Positions 36,292 to 43,698 of a stretch of 64,000 nt of DNA are shown piece by piece (within the stretch, counting starts at the first letter, position 1; every line of letters begins with the position of its first letter). The notes beneath the pieces were generated by a model. The model made no database searches. It was not told the DNA's origin and saw only the letters and a list, made by a program, of their open reading frames with translations. The DNA is taken from NCBI RefSeq assembly GCF_040219335.1, contig NZ_JAVJSQ010000004.1, positions 558,001 through 622,000 on the forward strand, in the 5' to 3' direction. This stretch comes from Gimesia sp. GTDB lineage: Bacteria; Planctomycetota; Planctomycetia; Planctomycetales; Planctomycetaceae. Made by a program: the position numbers and the translations under genes.

Positions 36292-38601
36292 ATGATCGAC
36301 GTTCAACGGTTCAAAACAGATCTGATAGCGCTGGGGTTACTGGCGGCAACAGTCTTTCTCGGACTGAGCCTGTTCAGTTACGATCCCGCTGATCCCCCTG
36401 CGCAACTGGTCTACCCTGTCCGTGAAGTTGCACAAAATCTATGTGGTGCCACGGGAGCACATATCGCCCATCTGCTCCGCTCTGGCTTCGGTCTAGGTGC
36501 CTGGGGAATCTTTCTGGCTCTGGTCGTCGTAGATATGCGAATGTTTTCCCGCCAGGAGGCATCAGGAGTTATGGTCGAACTGTTCGGTCTGGCTCTGATT
36601 CTCGTTTCGCTCTGTATCGGCAGCCAGATCCTGATTGGAACAAATAACGCCACGCCTCTCATCGGTAGTGGTGGTTATATCGGCGCGCTCGGATATTCGC
36701 TGCTGAATGCCAAATTCTCTCTCGCGGGTTCTTTAATTCTGCTCGCATCCATGTTCGCAGCCGGCCTGTTACTGACCGCCGACACACTTCCCGTACGTAT
36801 CCTGTTTGCCTGCCTGGCATTCCCCTTCAAAGCTTTCAGCCGCGAATCATCTGAAGTTGATGAGAACACCGAAGCAGTTGAAGAAGAAGAGGAAGAATAC
36901 GAAGAGGAAGAGGAAATCGTCGCAGAAGACGAAGAAGAGTATGAGGAAGAAGAGGAACCAGCACCAGCTCCTAAAGCTAAGAAACTGAAGAAGCGGAAGC
37001 CGATCAAAGTCAATCCGCCTGCCGGCCTGCGACTGGCCCGTCAGACTCAACCGATCGAGCAAAAAAAAAACAGCTCGTATGAACTTCCCGGGTTAGATCT
37101 GCTGGAAGAAGCAGAGAACTTTCCTTTCGAACTGCTGGCAAAAAAAGCGGAAGAAGCAGCGGAGATTCTGGAAAACACCTTCGCTGACTTCGGACTCGAC
37201 ATTCAAGTCTCTGAAATCGATACCGGACCGGTACTCACTCTGTTCGAACTGGATCTGAAACCTGGTTTGCGTGTTGCCAAAGTCACCGCACTGGCCAACG
37301 ATCTGGCTGTCGCTCTGCGTGTACCTTCCGTGCGTGTTGTGCCTTCAATTCCTGGTAAAAACACCGTTGGTGTGGAAGTCCCGAACGATAAACAGGTCAT
37401 GGTTCGTCTGCGTGAACTCATTGAATCCTGTGCGGATGATGCAGACAAAAACCGGATCCCGCTTTACATGGGTAAAGATGTCAGCGGTCGTCCACTTACC
37501 GCAGACCTTGCCAAGTTACCTCACCTGCTGATTGCAGGACGAACCGGTACTGGTAAGAGTGTCTGCCTTAACACATTGATTCTCTCACTGCTGATGACAC
37601 GGACTCCCAACGAAGTCAAAATGCTGATGATCGACCCCAAAATGGTGGAACTCAGCGGTTATAAACGGATTCCTCACCTGATGCATCCGGTCATCACTGA
37701 TATGAAAAAAGCAGAAGCCGTTCTGGCCTGGGCCGTCGACAAAATGGAAGAGCGTTATGATCTGCTCGCCCGTTGCGGCTCCCGGAACATCGAAAGCTTC
37801 AACAAGCTCGGTAAGGCAAGAGTACTGGAACTGGCTGACATCGATCCCGATTCAGAAGAAGCCCAGCAGATGCCCGAAAAAATGCCGTCGATCGTGATTG
37901 TCGCAGATGAAATTGCAGACATGATGATGACTTCTGGCAAAGATGTGGAAGCACACATTATCCGTCTGGCTCAGAAATCGCGTGCGGTCGGCATTCACCT
38001 GGTCCTCGCCACACAGAAACCAACGGTCGACGTCATTACCGGTCTGATCAAATCCAACCTGCCTGCCCGCGTTTCATTCCAGGTAGCAAGCCGTGGCGAC
38101 AGCCGCGTGGTTCTGGATGAAAATGGTGCCGATGCCCTGCTCGGAAACGGGGACATGCTCTATCTGGCTCCGGGAACCAGTAAACTGACCCGTGCTCAGG
38201 GAGCCTACGTCAGCGATGAAGAAATTGAACGTGTGATTGACTTCTTCAGCGATATGGAACCCGAATACAGCCCCGAACTGGCTCAGATCACCTCTGCCAA
38301 CTCCAAGAAGAACGGTGGCGGCGATTCGGACCGCAAGGAAGACAGCCTCTACAACGAAGCAGTCGAAGTCGTCATCCGCGAAGGTCGTGGTTCGGTTTCT
38401 CTCCTGCAGCGGGCTCTCGGAGTCGGCTATGGTCGAGGGGCCCGCCTGATCGATTACATGGCAGAAGACGGAATCGTAGGTGAGTATAACGGCTCCCAGG
38501 CACGTGAAGTCCTGTATACAATCGATGAGTGGGAAGCCATGAAATCCAGTGATTTCGACGATGGTTACGGCGAAGAAGAATACGAAGAGGAATTCGTCTA
38601 A
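36292..38601 (+). CDS. ftsK: DNA translocase FtsK/SpoIIIE
   Basis: FtsK pumps chromosome ends through the closing septum. The 769-residue protein has about four membrane helices in residues 15-185, a very acidic E-rich linker (about 195-235), then the motor: Walker A GRTGTGKS at 416-423, Walker B SIVIVADEIADMMM, and a C-terminal winged-helix gamma domain (VIREGRGSVSLLQRALGVGYGRGARLIDYM) that reads polarity sequences. The tail ends in an acidic stretch. ATG 36292 is preferred to TTG 36283. The linker is shorter than in E. coli. Planctomycetes generally lack FtsZ, so FtsK here works with some other division apparatus. Confidence 0.95.
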   Translation: MIDVQRFKTDLIALGLLAATVFLGLSLFSYDPADPPAQLVYPVREVAQNLCGATGAHIAHLLRSGFGLGAWGIFLALVVVDMRMFSRQEASGVMVELFGLALILVSLCIGSQILIGTNNATPLIGSGGYIGALGYSLLNAKFSLAGSLILLASMFAAGLLLTADTLPVRILFACLAFPFKAFSRESSEVDENTEAVEEEEEEYEEEEEIVAEDEEEYEEEEEPAPAPKAKKLKKRKPIKVNPPAGLRLARQTQPIEQKKNSSYELPGLDLLEEAENFPFELLAKKAEEAAEILENTFADFGLDIQVSEIDTGPVLTLFELDLKPGLRVAKVTALANDLAVALRVPSVRVVPSIPGKNTVGVEVPNDKQVMVRLRELIESCADDADKNRIPLYMGKDVSGRPLTADLAKLPHLLIAGRTGTGKSVCLNTLILSLLMTRTPNEVKMLMIDPKMVELSGYKRIPHLMHPVITDMKKAEAVLAWAVDKMEERYDLLARCGSRNIESFNKLGKARVLELADIDPDSEEAQQMPEKMPSIVIVADEIADMMMTSGKDVEAHIIRLAQKSRAVGIHLVLATQKPTVDVITGLIKSNLPARVSFQVASRGDSRVVLDENGADALLGNGDMLYLAPGTSKLTRAQGAYVSDEEIERVIDFFSDMEPEYSPELAQITSANSKKNGGGDSDRKEDSLYNEAVEVVIREGRGSVSLLQRALGVGYGRGARLIDYMAEDGIVGEYNGSQAREVLYTIDEWEAMKSSDFDDGYGEEEYEEEFV

Positions 38602-38655: not shown

Positions 38656-38684
38656 TTGACTCCTGCTCTCCCGCTGCTTATGAT
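38656..38684 (+). promoter_or_regulatory. Sigma-70 promoter of the cimA leader
   Basis: TTGACT (38656-38661) and TATGAT (38679-38684) are separated by exactly 17 nt, each matching consensus at five of six positions. Transcription should begin near 38691, 52 nt before the leader peptide ATG. Confidence 0.8.
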
Positions 38685-38742
38685 CTTCGCAGAGAAACTG
38701 TAAATTCAGAACTGTTTACCCAATTGGAAGGTCCCTTTGTCC

Positions 38743-38814
38743 ATGTTGTCTGTCTCCAAAAGCGTCTGCATTAGCAGCATTATTATTATTTGTGAGATTA
38801 CAGACTCCCTATGA
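38743..38814 (+). CDS. Isoleucine-rich leader peptide of cimA
   Basis: A 23-residue ORF, ATG 38743 to TGA 38812-38814, with six Ile codons, all ATT: residues 10, 13-16 (four in a row, within SSIIIICEI) and 19, plus two Leu and two Val. It lies between a good promoter and an intrinsic terminator, upstream of the enzyme that starts the citramalate route to isoleucine. This is the classic layout of a transcription-attenuation leader: a ribosome short of Ile-tRNA would stall on the ATT run. A GGAAGG about 11 nt before the ATG could serve as ribosome-binding site. It was missed by ORF length cut-offs. Confidence 0.82.
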   Translation: MLSVSKSVCISSIIIICEITDSL

Positions 38815-38877
38815 CTTGAGGATCATTACCAATTTAACAGATTTTCATAACCTCAGGTCACAACCTGAGGTTTTTTT
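38812..38877 (+). terminator. cimA attenuator: terminator and competing anti-terminator
   Basis: Terminator: AACCTCAGGT (38849-38858) pairs perfectly with ACCTGAGGTT (38863-38872) over a 4-nt loop, followed by a run of seven T (38871-38877). Anti-terminator: TGACTTGAGG (38812-38821) can pair over 10 bp, one of them G-U, with CCTCAGGTCA (38851-38860), which includes most of the terminator's left arm. The two pairings exclude each other. The anti-terminator arm begins on the leader stop codon, so a ribosome that finishes the peptide would mask it and permit termination. Confidence 0.85.
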
Positions 38878-39045
38878 ATTGGATTCACGAGGACGCATCA
38901 AGGACTGTCATACAATCGCCAGAAGAGAGTAACAGGACAGTAGTTCCAACTTTTTTCCGGTACGGTGACCGCTCCTCGCAACCAAGAGCCTCCCCGAGTG
39001 AGTCCAGCGACGTTATTTCATTTCAACAGAAAGAAAGCCCCTACG

Positions 39046-40620
<1,575 letters not shown>

Positions 40621-40773
40621 AACGCGGAATCCTCGACCGTCACCAATGCCAGTCAAGCCGTTTTTTGCTATACCAGACGGTGGAAACTGGCTTGGTGGAC
40701 GTTGTGACCTGCTGTCTTCCATGCCGTCCCTCTTTTTCGCATCTATCCTTAATTATAAGCCCAACCGGATCCC

Positions 40774-43698
40774 ATGACCGAATCGCTTGAGAAACATTAC
40801 AATCCCGAGAGTGCACAACAGAAATGGTACCCTTTCTGGGAGGAAAAAGGCTATTTCCATGCCGAGCCCAACCCGGAAAAAGAGCAGCATACCATTATGA
40901 TTCCCCTGCCGAACGTGACCGGGGCTCTGCACATGGGACACGCGCTCAACGGTACGCTACAGGACCTGATCACCCGCTGGCGGCGGATGCAGGGCTACGA
41001 GGCACTCTGGATGCCCGGAACCGACCATGCCGGCATCGCCACCCAGGCTGTCGTCGAACGCCGGATGAAAGAAGAGGAAAATCTGACCCGCCATGACATC
41101 GGCCGAGATGCGCTCATCGAACGGATCTGGAAGTGGAAAGACCAGTATGAAAAACGGATCCTGAATCAGCTGCGGAAACTGGGCGCCAGCTGCGACTGGG
41201 AACGCACCCGCTTCACACTCGATGAAATGTGCTCCAAAGCAGTCAGACGCACTTTCCTGAAGCTCTTTTCGGATGGGCTCATTTATCGCGGTAAGCGACT
41301 GGTGAACTGGGATCCCTTCCTGCAGACAGCAGTTGCGGATGACGAAGTCTTTTCCGAAGACATCGACGGAAAATTCTGGACCTTTCAATACCCGGTTGTG
41401 GACAGCGACGAACGGATTTCATTCTCCACGACACGCCCTGAAACGATGCTGGGCGACACAGCTGTCTGCGTGCATCCCTCCGATGAACGATATACGCACC
41501 TGGTTGGAAAGAAAGTCCGCATCCCGCTGAATGGTCGTGAAATCCCCATCATCGCGGATGCACTCCTGGCAGATAAAGACCTCGGTACCGGTGCCGTAAA
41601 AGTCACACCAGCTCACGACCCGAACGACTATGCCTGTGGTCTGCGAAACGATCTGGAACAGATCAACATCCTCAATCCTGACGGCACAATGAACGAAGCC
41701 GCCGGTGAATATGAGGGTCTGGATCGCTATGAGGTCCGTAAAAAAGTTGTTGAAGACATGGATCAACAGGGCTTCTTCATTGAAGTTGAAGACCGTAAGA
41801 TTCCAGTCAAGCACAGCGATCGTTCCAAGACACCGATCGAACCATACCTCTCCGATCAATGGTTCGTCAAAATGGATACGCTGGCCCAGTCCGCCATTGA
41901 TGCTGTGGACGATGGTCGCGTTCGCTTCTTCCCCAGTCGCTATTCCAAAACGTATCTCGACTGGTTGAAGGAAAAGCGGGACTGGTGTATCAGCCGTCAG
42001 CTCTGGTGGGGACATCGCATCCCGATCTGGTACTGTGAAACCTGCACGGAAGAAGAGCTGAACCAGGCTTTCGGTGACCGTTATGATGTCAGCTTCCGCC
42101 GGGATGACGAAGATACCTGCTGGTTGATCTGTTCCGAAACCGATCTGAATGGTGACGAGTTAGGTGCTGCCCATCAGTTGACACAGGACGATGACGTCTT
42201 GGACACCTGGTTCAGCAGTGCCCTCTGGCCACATGCGACCCTGGGCTGGCCCGAAAAAAATCCTGACCTCGATTACTTCTATCCGGGTAGCGTACTGGTT
42301 ACCAGCCGCGATATCATCACGCTCTGGGTAGCACGCATGGTCCTCACCGGCCTGTATAACATGGGCGATATCCCATTCAAGCACGTCTGCATCCATCCAA
42401 AAATTCTCGATGGTTTCGGACAGACCATGTCCAAATCCAAAGGTAACGGCGTGGATCCGATGGATCTCATCGACAAATACGGCGTCGATGCGGTCCGGTT
42501 TACGATCTCCTCGTTCGCCGGGGAAACACAGGACGTCCGTCTGCCCGTCGGTTATGAGGATCCGGAGACCGGCGAAGTGGTACCGCAAACCCTGGAACAC
42601 CAGACTGCCATCCCCGCCGGTGGCGAGAAGCCGCGGATCAAATTCCCCAAGAGTGGTAAGTCGTATCAGTATACGAGCCCCTGGTTTGACCCCGATCCGG
42701 GCGAAAAAGTGGCCCGTATCGTTAGCGAACGCTTTGAATACGGACGCAACTTCTGTAACAAGCTCTGGAATGCCTGCCGGTTCGCGATGCTGAACCTGGA
42801 AAGCTACACTCCCGGACAGGTCGATGAAAGTGAACTGACGATGGAAGATCGCTGGATTCTGAGCCGACTGTCAACCGTGGCTGAGGAAATGACAACCGTT
42901 CTGGGACGCTACCAGTTCGATGTCGCGACGCGTGCCATTCGGGATTTCACCTGGAACGAATTCTGTGACTGGTACCTGGAAATGATCAAACCGCGATTGC
43001 GGGATGAAACTCTGAAACCGGTCGCTCAACGCGTGCTGGTGGGTGTACTGGACAATCTGCTGCGACTCCTGCAGCCATTTGTGCCCTTCGTTACAGAAGA
43101 GCTCTGGCAGCGTTTGAATGAAATTGCTCCCGAGCGGGGACTGTTCACACCAGAACCGGCTGTCGAGAGCGTAACAATCGCTGCCTGGCCCGAACCACCA
43201 CAGAGCTGGCAGGATTCTCAGCTGGAAAAACGGTTTGAGCGTCTGCAGGAAATGATCGTAGCGGTCCGCAACATTCGGGCGGTTTACAAAATTTCTCCGG
43301 CGACTCCACTGAAACTCTTCCTGCGTTGTGAAGCCGGGATTGCGGATGACATGCAGAACGTAGCCAGCCAGTTCGACAACCTGGCGAAAACACTGCTGGA
43401 GTCAGCGGGAGCCGATGTGCAGCGACCGGGTGGTTCAGCGACATTCTCCCTCAATGATGTGGATGGTTTCATTGCCTTGAAAGGCATTATCGATCTGGAT
43501 GCGGAACTCGCCCGACTGCAGACAGAAGCGGAAAAACTGCAGAAGCACATTGAAGGCAGCGAAAAGAAACTGGCCAACAAGAACTTTGTCGATCGCGCCC
43601 CTGCCGATGTTGTGGAAGGGGTTAAAGAAACGCTGACCGGGCTGCAGAAACAGTTACAGAGTGTTCAGGACTCCATTAATCAACTGAGCGAGCAGTAA
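40774..43698 (+). CDS. valS: Valine-tRNA ligase ValS
   Basis: Class I synthetase of 974 residues. The HIGH motif is PNVTGALHMGHALN near residue 50, the editing domain (CP1) spans about 190-400 with STTRPETMLGDTAVCVHP, and the KMSKS loop is GQTMSKSKGNGVDP near residue 550. The anticodon-binding helices and a C-terminal coiled coil (about 905-974; LARLQTEAEKLQKHIEGSEKKLANKNFV) follow, as is typical for bacterial ValRS. It is downstream of cimA by 153 bp on the same strand; both serve branched-chain amino acids, but I see no T-box or shared leader. Confidence 0.97.
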   Translation: MTESLEKHYNPESAQQKWYPFWEEKGYFHAEPNPEKEQHTIMIPLPNVTGALHMGHALNGTLQDLITRWRRMQGYEALWMPGTDHAGIATQAVVERRMKEEENLTRHDIGRDALIERIWKWKDQYEKRILNQLRKLGASCDWERTRFTLDEMCSKAVRRTFLKLFSDGLIYRGKRLVNWDPFLQTAVADDEVFSEDIDGKFWTFQYPVVDSDERISFSTTRPETMLGDTAVCVHPSDERYTHLVGKKVRIPLNGREIPIIADALLADKDLGTGAVKVTPAHDPNDYACGLRNDLEQINILNPDGTMNEAAGEYEGLDRYEVRKKVVEDMDQQGFFIEVEDRKIPVKHSDRSKTPIEPYLSDQWFVKMDTLAQSAIDAVDDGRVRFFPSRYSKTYLDWLKEKRDWCISRQLWWGHRIPIWYCETCTEEELNQAFGDRYDVSFRRDDEDTCWLICSETDLNGDELGAAHQLTQDDDVLDTWFSSALWPHATLGWPEKNPDLDYFYPGSVLVTSRDIITLWVARMVLTGLYNMGDIPFKHVCIHPKILDGFGQTMSKSKGNGVDPMDLIDKYGVDAVRFTISSFAGETQDVRLPVGYEDPETGEVVPQTLEHQTAIPAGGEKPRIKFPKSGKSYQYTSPWFDPDPGEKVARIVSERFEYGRNFCNKLWNACRFAMLNLESYTPGQVDESELTMEDRWILSRLSTVAEEMTTVLGRYQFDVATRAIRDFTWNEFCDWYLEMIKPRLRDETLKPVAQRVLVGVLDNLLRLLQPFVPFVTEELWQRLNEIAPERGLFTPEPAVESVTIAAWPEPPQSWQDSQLEKRFERLQEMIVAVRNIRAVYKISPATPLKLFLRCEAGIADDMQNVASQFDNLAKTLLESAGADVQRPGGSATFSLNDVDGFIALKGIIDLDAELARLQTEAEKLQKHIEGSEKKLANKNFVDRAPADVVEGVKETLTGLQKQLQSVQDSINQLSEQ

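Follow-up and report, generated by a model that had tools for sequence, protein, structure and literature searches.

The closest described systems are the attenuators of E. coli trp and Salmonella his. According to PMC1183508, a leader ORF with codons for the cognate amino acid precedes two competing structures, a II:III antiterminator and a III:IV terminator, and a ribosome that moves on prevents II:III from forming; the planctomycete case described below is alike in these respects. Salmonella his seems to use an extra hairpin (PMC1183508). The planctomycete case differs from both in amino acid, gene and phylum, and also in that the leader stop codon overlaps region 2, the 5' arm of the antiterminator, in 70 of 91 loci, a count that is partly built in by our search window. 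For a stop codon located far downstream in region II, the theoretical model of PMC1183508 argues that basal read-through is lowered. The planctomycete layout resembles this low-leak design, although the comparison is ours and not one found in the available text of PMC1183508.

Closer in pathway are the ilvB-II motif of Corynebacterium and, besides it, the ilvB-OMG and Leptospira ilvB motifs (PMC10272879), which also belong to the branched-chain pathway and have an upstream ORF (uORF) rich in branched-chain amino acids (BCAA), with a terminator and an antiterminator as well in the case of ilvB-II. These motifs precede ilvB, whereas the planctomycete elements precede cimA or leuA; moreover, their uORFs combine several residues (Ile, Leu and Val, or BCAAs together with Thr), whereas in planctomycetes the prevailing residue is Ile at cimA and Leu at leuA. 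The actinobacterial LEU element and ilvB leaders are alike in that leuA or ilvB is preceded by a leader ORF rich in Leu or BCAA (PMC1262725). From the same source, actinobacterial leuS leaders are classical attenuators, like the planctomycete case, but LEU folds as a pseudoknot in which the Shine-Dalgarno sequence of leuA takes part in the base stem, in contrast to the intrinsic terminator plus antiterminator of planctomycete leuA.

Regarding phylogenetic range, a survey of 2010 gives Proteobacteria and Actinobacteria as the only groups then known to have leader-peptide systems, and itself adds Firmicutes (PMC2965389); uORF control was later inferred for ilvB motifs in further groups (PMC10272879). 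The available text of PMC8632094, which surveys 26 genomes, contains no word beginning with Planctomyc-. PMC4833913 counts short leader genes near gene starts in many phyla, Planctomycetes included, and no description of a planctomycete attenuator was found in its available text. Similarly, no planctomycete attenuator was found among the matches listed for attenuation, the pathway and coupling in the open-licence literature, a body of text that leaves most subscription papers outside and excludes Lopatovskaya et al. 2010 (cited in PMC4833913), the likeliest place of an earlier prediction. Among those matches, the attenuation papers agree with an earlier note on this DNA, whose author knew of no described case in the phylum. 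The mechanism is classical and, as far as these sources go, the phylum, the target gene and the layout with the stop codon inside the antiterminator are new.

Genomic context and parts of the element

In the window, i.e. the whole 64 kb stretch of DNA that was analysed, profile matches give the gene order ftsK-like gene, cimA, valS. The ftsK-like gene ends at 38601 and has the same direction as cimA, and promoter, leader ORF, antiterminator and terminator all lie between these two genes (Table 1). CimA of uncultured Gimesia relatives matches the CimA of the window at 91-93%, and the upstream regions of these relatives are identical to those of two members of the genus group of the window. The product of CimA is citramalate, a threonine-bypassing entry to isoleucine. 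The IlvA regulatory domain (PF00585) had no match in the genome of the window, nor in six of the eight other genus members searched. Therefore cimA is plausibly the step to control, and CimA is probably the route of this genome into isoleucine, a short IlvA devoid of the regulatory domain being still compatible with these searches.

Table 1. Coordinates of the parts of the proposed attenuator and of downstream genes in the window
Feature	Position	Strand	Basis or remark
Sigma-70-type promoter TTGACT-N17-TATGAT	38656..38684	+	Pattern match; 17-nt spacer kept in genus
GGAAGG, candidate leader ribosome-binding site	38726..38731	+	Sequence; GAAGG/GAAAG stretch in genus alignment
Leader peptide ORF, 23 codons	38743..38814	+	Six ATT (Ile) codons: 10, 13-16, 19
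Leader-internal hairpin, 5' arm (candidate pause hairpin)	38748..38756	+	Pairs with 38794-38797 and 38801-38805
Leader-internal hairpin, 3' arm	38794..38805	+	Pairing in genus alignment
Region 2, antiterminator 5' arm, TGACTTGAGG	38812..38821	+	Begins with the three bases of the leader stop
Antiterminator loop, 27 nt	38822..38848	+	Nearly invariant in genus
Region 3, CCTCAGGTCA	38851..38860	+	Common to antiterminator and terminator
Intrinsic terminator	38849..38877	+	Stem 38849-38858 with 38863-38872, then T tract to 38877
cimA, citramalate synthase	39046..40620	+	TIGR00977, 699 bits (cut-off 450)
valS, valine--tRNA ligase	40774..43698	+	NF004349; possibly cotranscribed with cimA

The earlier note had read this region as an isoleucine attenuator of cimA. 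The elements it had named, i.e. the promoter, the 23-codon leader with six ATT codons (four of them consecutive), the terminator, a 10-bp competing pairing beginning at the leader stop codon and CimA as the downstream gene, were all found in the sequence, the sole refinement being one T.G pair in the competing helix. As a whole, its attenuator interpretation is supported. The leader translates as MLSVSKSVCISSIIIICEITDSL, followed by the stop. The promoter pattern was found once, which by itself is unremarkable because 0.6 matches are expected in shuffled sequence. The terminator stem (38849-38872) has 10 bp and an energy of -15.2 kcal/mol, with T residues at 38871-38877, and none of 200 shuffles was as good. 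The competing helix of 38812-38821 with 38851-38860 has 10 pairs, the T.G pair included, and -12.9 kcal/mol, starting exactly at the T of the TGA stop; as good a helix arose in 0 of 200 shuffles of a 52-nt piece and in 3 of 200 of a 62-nt piece.

Five terminators of this stringency are present in the 64 kb on both strands. Among these five, only the cimA terminator is preceded by a frame with six codons of one amino acid within its last 20; in the other four the preceding frame has at most four. At equilibrium the terminator wins, as the whole piece folds at -20.5 kcal/mol compared to -12.9 kcal/mol for the antiterminator, and antitermination must therefore be kinetic. Once the terminator forms, the loop stretch GATTTTCA might pair with TGAGGATC at region 2, perhaps masking region 2. 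This antiterminator loop (38822-38848) varies less in the genus than the leader ORF does. Folding of the whole transcript (z -2.85) also gave a pairing of the ribosome-binding-site stretch with the loop, which was dropped as it is absent in relatives by eye.

Conservation within the genus

The 20 loci of the genus gave 16 distinct upstream regions. In their alignment leader, TGA stop, region 2, region 3, terminator and promoter are all kept, and the ATT-ATT-ATT-ATT run is invariant. The 17-nt promoter spacer was observed in 16/16, with a variable spacer sequence. According to the earlier note, loss of leader or antiterminator while the terminator stays would refute attenuation; the opposite result was obtained, as all are kept together in the genus and, on a wider scale, in 48 of 54 family genera and in some of the other lineages of the phylum. 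In the genus alignment, 99.3% of the antiterminator cells are paired, with one pair broken in one sequence; being otherwise invariant, the antiterminator thus shows conservation at this level and not covariation. In two loci (L001 and L002) the leader start is shifted by one codon to the next ATG, the frame being kept.

Distinct changes in the leader frame are 13 synonymous versus 22 non-synonymous, a synonymous fraction of 0.37 compared to 0.26 expected, while the other two frames give 0.30 versus 0.29 and 0.22 versus 0.23. This substitution pattern suggests a coding signature, if a modest one, that favours the leader frame over the other two. The leader-internal hairpin is paired in 95.6% of cells in the genus. 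Three of its nine pairs changed on both sides, a count reached by 41 of 500 shuffles; its covariation score was reached by 0 of 500, with a folding z of -1.70, in a set restricted to one genus, where related sequences can mislead such a test. This structure could be a pause hairpin.

Three-strand pairing and ribosome geometry

For a wider comparison, 91 dissimilar attenuators were compiled from 137 called among 225 upstream regions, taking as leader the Ile-richest frame with at least three Ile codons, a type of call with a null rate of 57/1040. The duplex of region 2 with its own region 3 had a mean energy of -17.84 kcal/mol over the 91 loci, compared to -14.12 when arms were exchanged between loci and -8.65 for a control segment inside the leader; the own-arm value was reached in 0 of 5000 permutations. 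In a sliding profile, which is the fairer test because the overlap count given above is partly built in, pairing rose from about -5 kcal/mol upstream to a peak of -12.1 on the stop codon, or -9.6 with the arm of another locus. In 70 of 91 loci the best window fell between -8 and +10 relative to the stop, an interval that holds 24% of the windows. Together, own-arm preference and stop-codon peak indicate that the stop region is kept complementary to a changing terminator. The choice of stop codon varies with the arm as well: 50 of the 56 loci with CCTCAG or CCTCGG end in TGA, whereas the other 35 have 18 TAG, 11 TGA and 6 TAA stops.

The position of the Ile codons was then related to the reach of a ribosome, whose footprint is said to extend 12 nt downstream (PMC4833913). 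In the window, each of the six Ile codons, even the last one (38797-38799), leaves region 2 just free at this footprint, and a ribosome at the stop would cover it wholly. Across the 91 leaders, Ile is most frequent at a distance of 7-10 codons from the stop, and few leaders have it at any of the last three positions (5, 7 and 3 of 91). The median Ile codon is at least 13 nt from region 2 in 85 of 91, the last Ile codon in 62 only, and region 2 ends within 13 nt of the stop in 73. By geometry alone, a stall would thus free region 2 and a ribosome at the stop would mask it. The proposal that stalling on codons 13-16 leaves 38812-38821 free and that the stop position covers it accordingly fits most of these dissimilar loci. 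Leaders and gene differ in codon usage: 289 ATT, 125 ATC and 9 ATA in the 91 leaders compared to 951 ATC, 362 ATT and 15 ATA in cimA of 49 of those loci. ATT and ATC are both read by one tRNA, ATT by wobble.

Occurrence in the family and the phylum

A family sample of 58 genera was screened, of which 55 had cimA and 54 could be represented by one upstream region each. A call consisted of a terminator and, 10-62 nt ahead of it, the end of a leader whose last 20 codons included at least three Ile. This combination was found in 48 of the 54 genera, versus 57 of 1040 shuffled leaders, and was not called in six. One of these six (L107) carries a uORF rich in Ile, and the covariance model described below has a match beside cimA in the genome of L107 (G065, E 1.5e-4), so that its terminator is probably only imperfect. 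A terminator within 650 nt was present in 125 of 146 unique upstream regions.

In a scan blind to the amino acid, 79 of 80 dissimilar upstream regions were usable, and 19 terminators elsewhere in the sampled loci served as controls. Ile was the most enriched residue in 64 of the 79, versus 2 of the 19 controls. A rule setting the frame by TGAGG was rejected in favour of this blind scan, as it gives the wrong frame for the genus itself, whose stop sits four bases upstream.

In other families, 20 of 79 upstream regions passed an Ile-cluster test (at most 2 of 100 shuffles), one of the 80 distant ones (L207, 91 bases) being too short and left out. Striking Ile leaders were seen in another class of the same phylum, namely in L189 (MNIQNIIISIIINIGGD), L184, L188 and L203. 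By this test some families look empty (f40 with 0/7, f43 with 0/5 and f69 with 1/11), the single pass in f69 being 394 nt away from the gene and lacking a called terminator. Loci titled Gemmatales or Gemmataceae are mixed, one being called (L077) and two not (L047, L074). In a phylum-wide sample of 157 genomes, a cimA match at E ≤ 1e-100 was present in only 57. Altogether, the element is widespread but not universal in Planctomycetota. In family f70 (L228-L238), L073 and L078, several leaders have fewer Ile and more Val, e.g. ...VIVVITTG, with Val ranking first in L073, L231 and L234. A mixed Val/Ile sensor is possible in these loci.

Model search and leuA

A covariance model (R1) was built for the stretch from stop to terminator, using 40 cimA leaders from 58 listed, of the 91 dissimilar ones. 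It was searched against 41 whole genomes, with stricter filters as there were more than 40 genomes. At E ≤ 1e-5, all 32 matches shared the strand of cimA and were no more than 700 nt upstream of it, a result partly built in because many training leaders come from the searched genomes. Up to E 0.01, there were 34 matches at cimA, 7 at leuA, a gene absent from the training, and 10 elsewhere. Among 20 matches away from cimA and leuA that were inspected by eye, no amino-acid leader was seen, and many of these off-target matches resemble gene-end terminators.

In the genome of the window, the leuA locus (L273, contig G000:C3) has its model match at 71244-71328 and its leuA match from 71419. Here the leader is MRNYNLLNLNLLRSLLLPARS, with its TAG stop inside AGGTCTTAGGTT, and AGGTCTTAGGTT pairs with the 5' arm of the leuA terminator. 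A set of 32 family loci was assembled from 5 loci plus 27 from the best-scoring end of 58 matched genomes. A leader with at least five Leu was present in 28 of 32; of these, 22 have TAG as the stop codon, and stop and region 2 overlap in 20. In shuffles, at least five Leu occurred in 237 of 4350. The blind scan placed Leu on top in 22 of 29 scannable loci; in one (L272) the top residue of the first scan was Gly and not Leu. The leuA terminators of the genus were missed with loops up to 9 nt and found with loops up to 14 nt. These features point to a Leu attenuator of the same design at leuA, the genome of the window included. A second LeuA-like gene was observed in L274 (G000:C40:292085-293242) and L275 (G009), where the match crosses one TGA stop.

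Other amino-acid genes were looked at in five planctomycete genomes. No terminator was found within 450 nt upstream of the family match for ilvB, nor within 450 nt of that for hisG; trpE gave one weak attenuator candidate in 1/5.

Proposed mechanism and alternative explanations

The locus comprises a leader ORF, a run of codons for the end product, a terminator before the gene and an antiterminator that excludes the terminator. We therefore propose, with a probability of roughly 0.93, that a ribosome-mediated transcription attenuator senses charged isoleucyl-tRNA and controls cimA, and possibly valS behind it. Sequence and comparison show the parts, their joint conservation, covariation and geometry; how stalling, termination and read-through would proceed in cells is what we infer from them. 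As judged from the promoter, transcription would start near 38690, and a ribosome would start the leader peptide with RNA polymerase just ahead. When Ile-tRNA is scarce, this ribosome would stall on the ATT codons. Even from codon 19 a footprint of about 12 nt ends near 38811, so that 38812-38821 would stay free, pair with 38851-38860 once these are made and block the terminator. When Ile-tRNA is ample, the ribosome would reach the TGA at 38812 and cover all of region 2, and the terminator at 38849-38877 would form.

It could be argued that the terminator merely closes the transcript of the ftsK-like gene upstream, or acts constitutively, and that the Ile-rich ORF is there by chance. The ftsK-like gene runs in the same direction and ends at 38601, and many off-target matches of the model indeed look like ordinary gene-end terminators. 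However, a conserved promoter separates ftsK from the leader, Ile is enriched in 64 of 79 dissimilar loci and region 2 is a better match to its own region 3 than to that of another locus, and we consider this explanation extremely unlikely.

Likewise, the near-invariant loop in the genus is what a ligand or protein site might look like, as would suit a metabolite riboswitch, a T-box or a protein-binding antiterminator with an incidental ORF. Across other genera this loop is unconserved, however, and the shared features are the Ile codons and the three-strand complementarity. No Rfam family reached its gathering score in the window, the best sub-threshold match (E 0.29) being to a Streptococcus sRNA, which we took as chance. 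A sensor of this type is thus very unlikely. Arrest by the nascent peptide, in which a specific leader peptide and a small molecule rather than codon starvation stall the ribosome, could draw on the IIII core and its neighbours, which are kept within the genus. Between genera, however, the leader peptides share little apart from their Ile content, and the preference of the leaders for ATT, where cimA favours ATC, fits sensing at the codon level; we regard such arrest as exceedingly improbable.

Implications and downstream reach

Taking the isoleucine attenuator at cimA (often with valS behind) together with the leucine one at leuA, we lean towards the view that this control is old and widespread in Planctomycetota, with a stop codon base-paired in the antiterminator as in the modelled low-leak design, and that it implies coupling. 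Transcription and translation would have to be coupled at cimA and leuA because the control needs a ribosome within some tens of nucleotides of RNA polymerase. A separation of transcription and translation has been claimed in Planctomycetota (2014, as cited in PMC5287468 and PMC5394234). With attenuators that depend on a ribosome trailing the polymerase closely, coupling becomes testable gene by gene. Leader-peptide control would now extend to most sampled genera of the family and part of the remaining phylum, at two genes, and planctomycete genetics gains an isoleucine sensor defined by sequence. Tools for deleting genes exist in this phylum for Planctopirus limnophila (PMC5394234).

The cimA-valS gap measures 153 nt in the window (40621-40773). 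Where the sequence continued for at least 2.4 kb beyond cimA (70 loci), valS was found downstream in the same orientation in 43; the gap spans 6-1475 nt and stays below 230 nt in 20 of these. The attenuator may thus also reach this tRNA synthetase gene, which would then be cotranscribed with cimA. It would be odd for an isoleucine attenuator to stand ahead of a valine tRNA synthetase gene.
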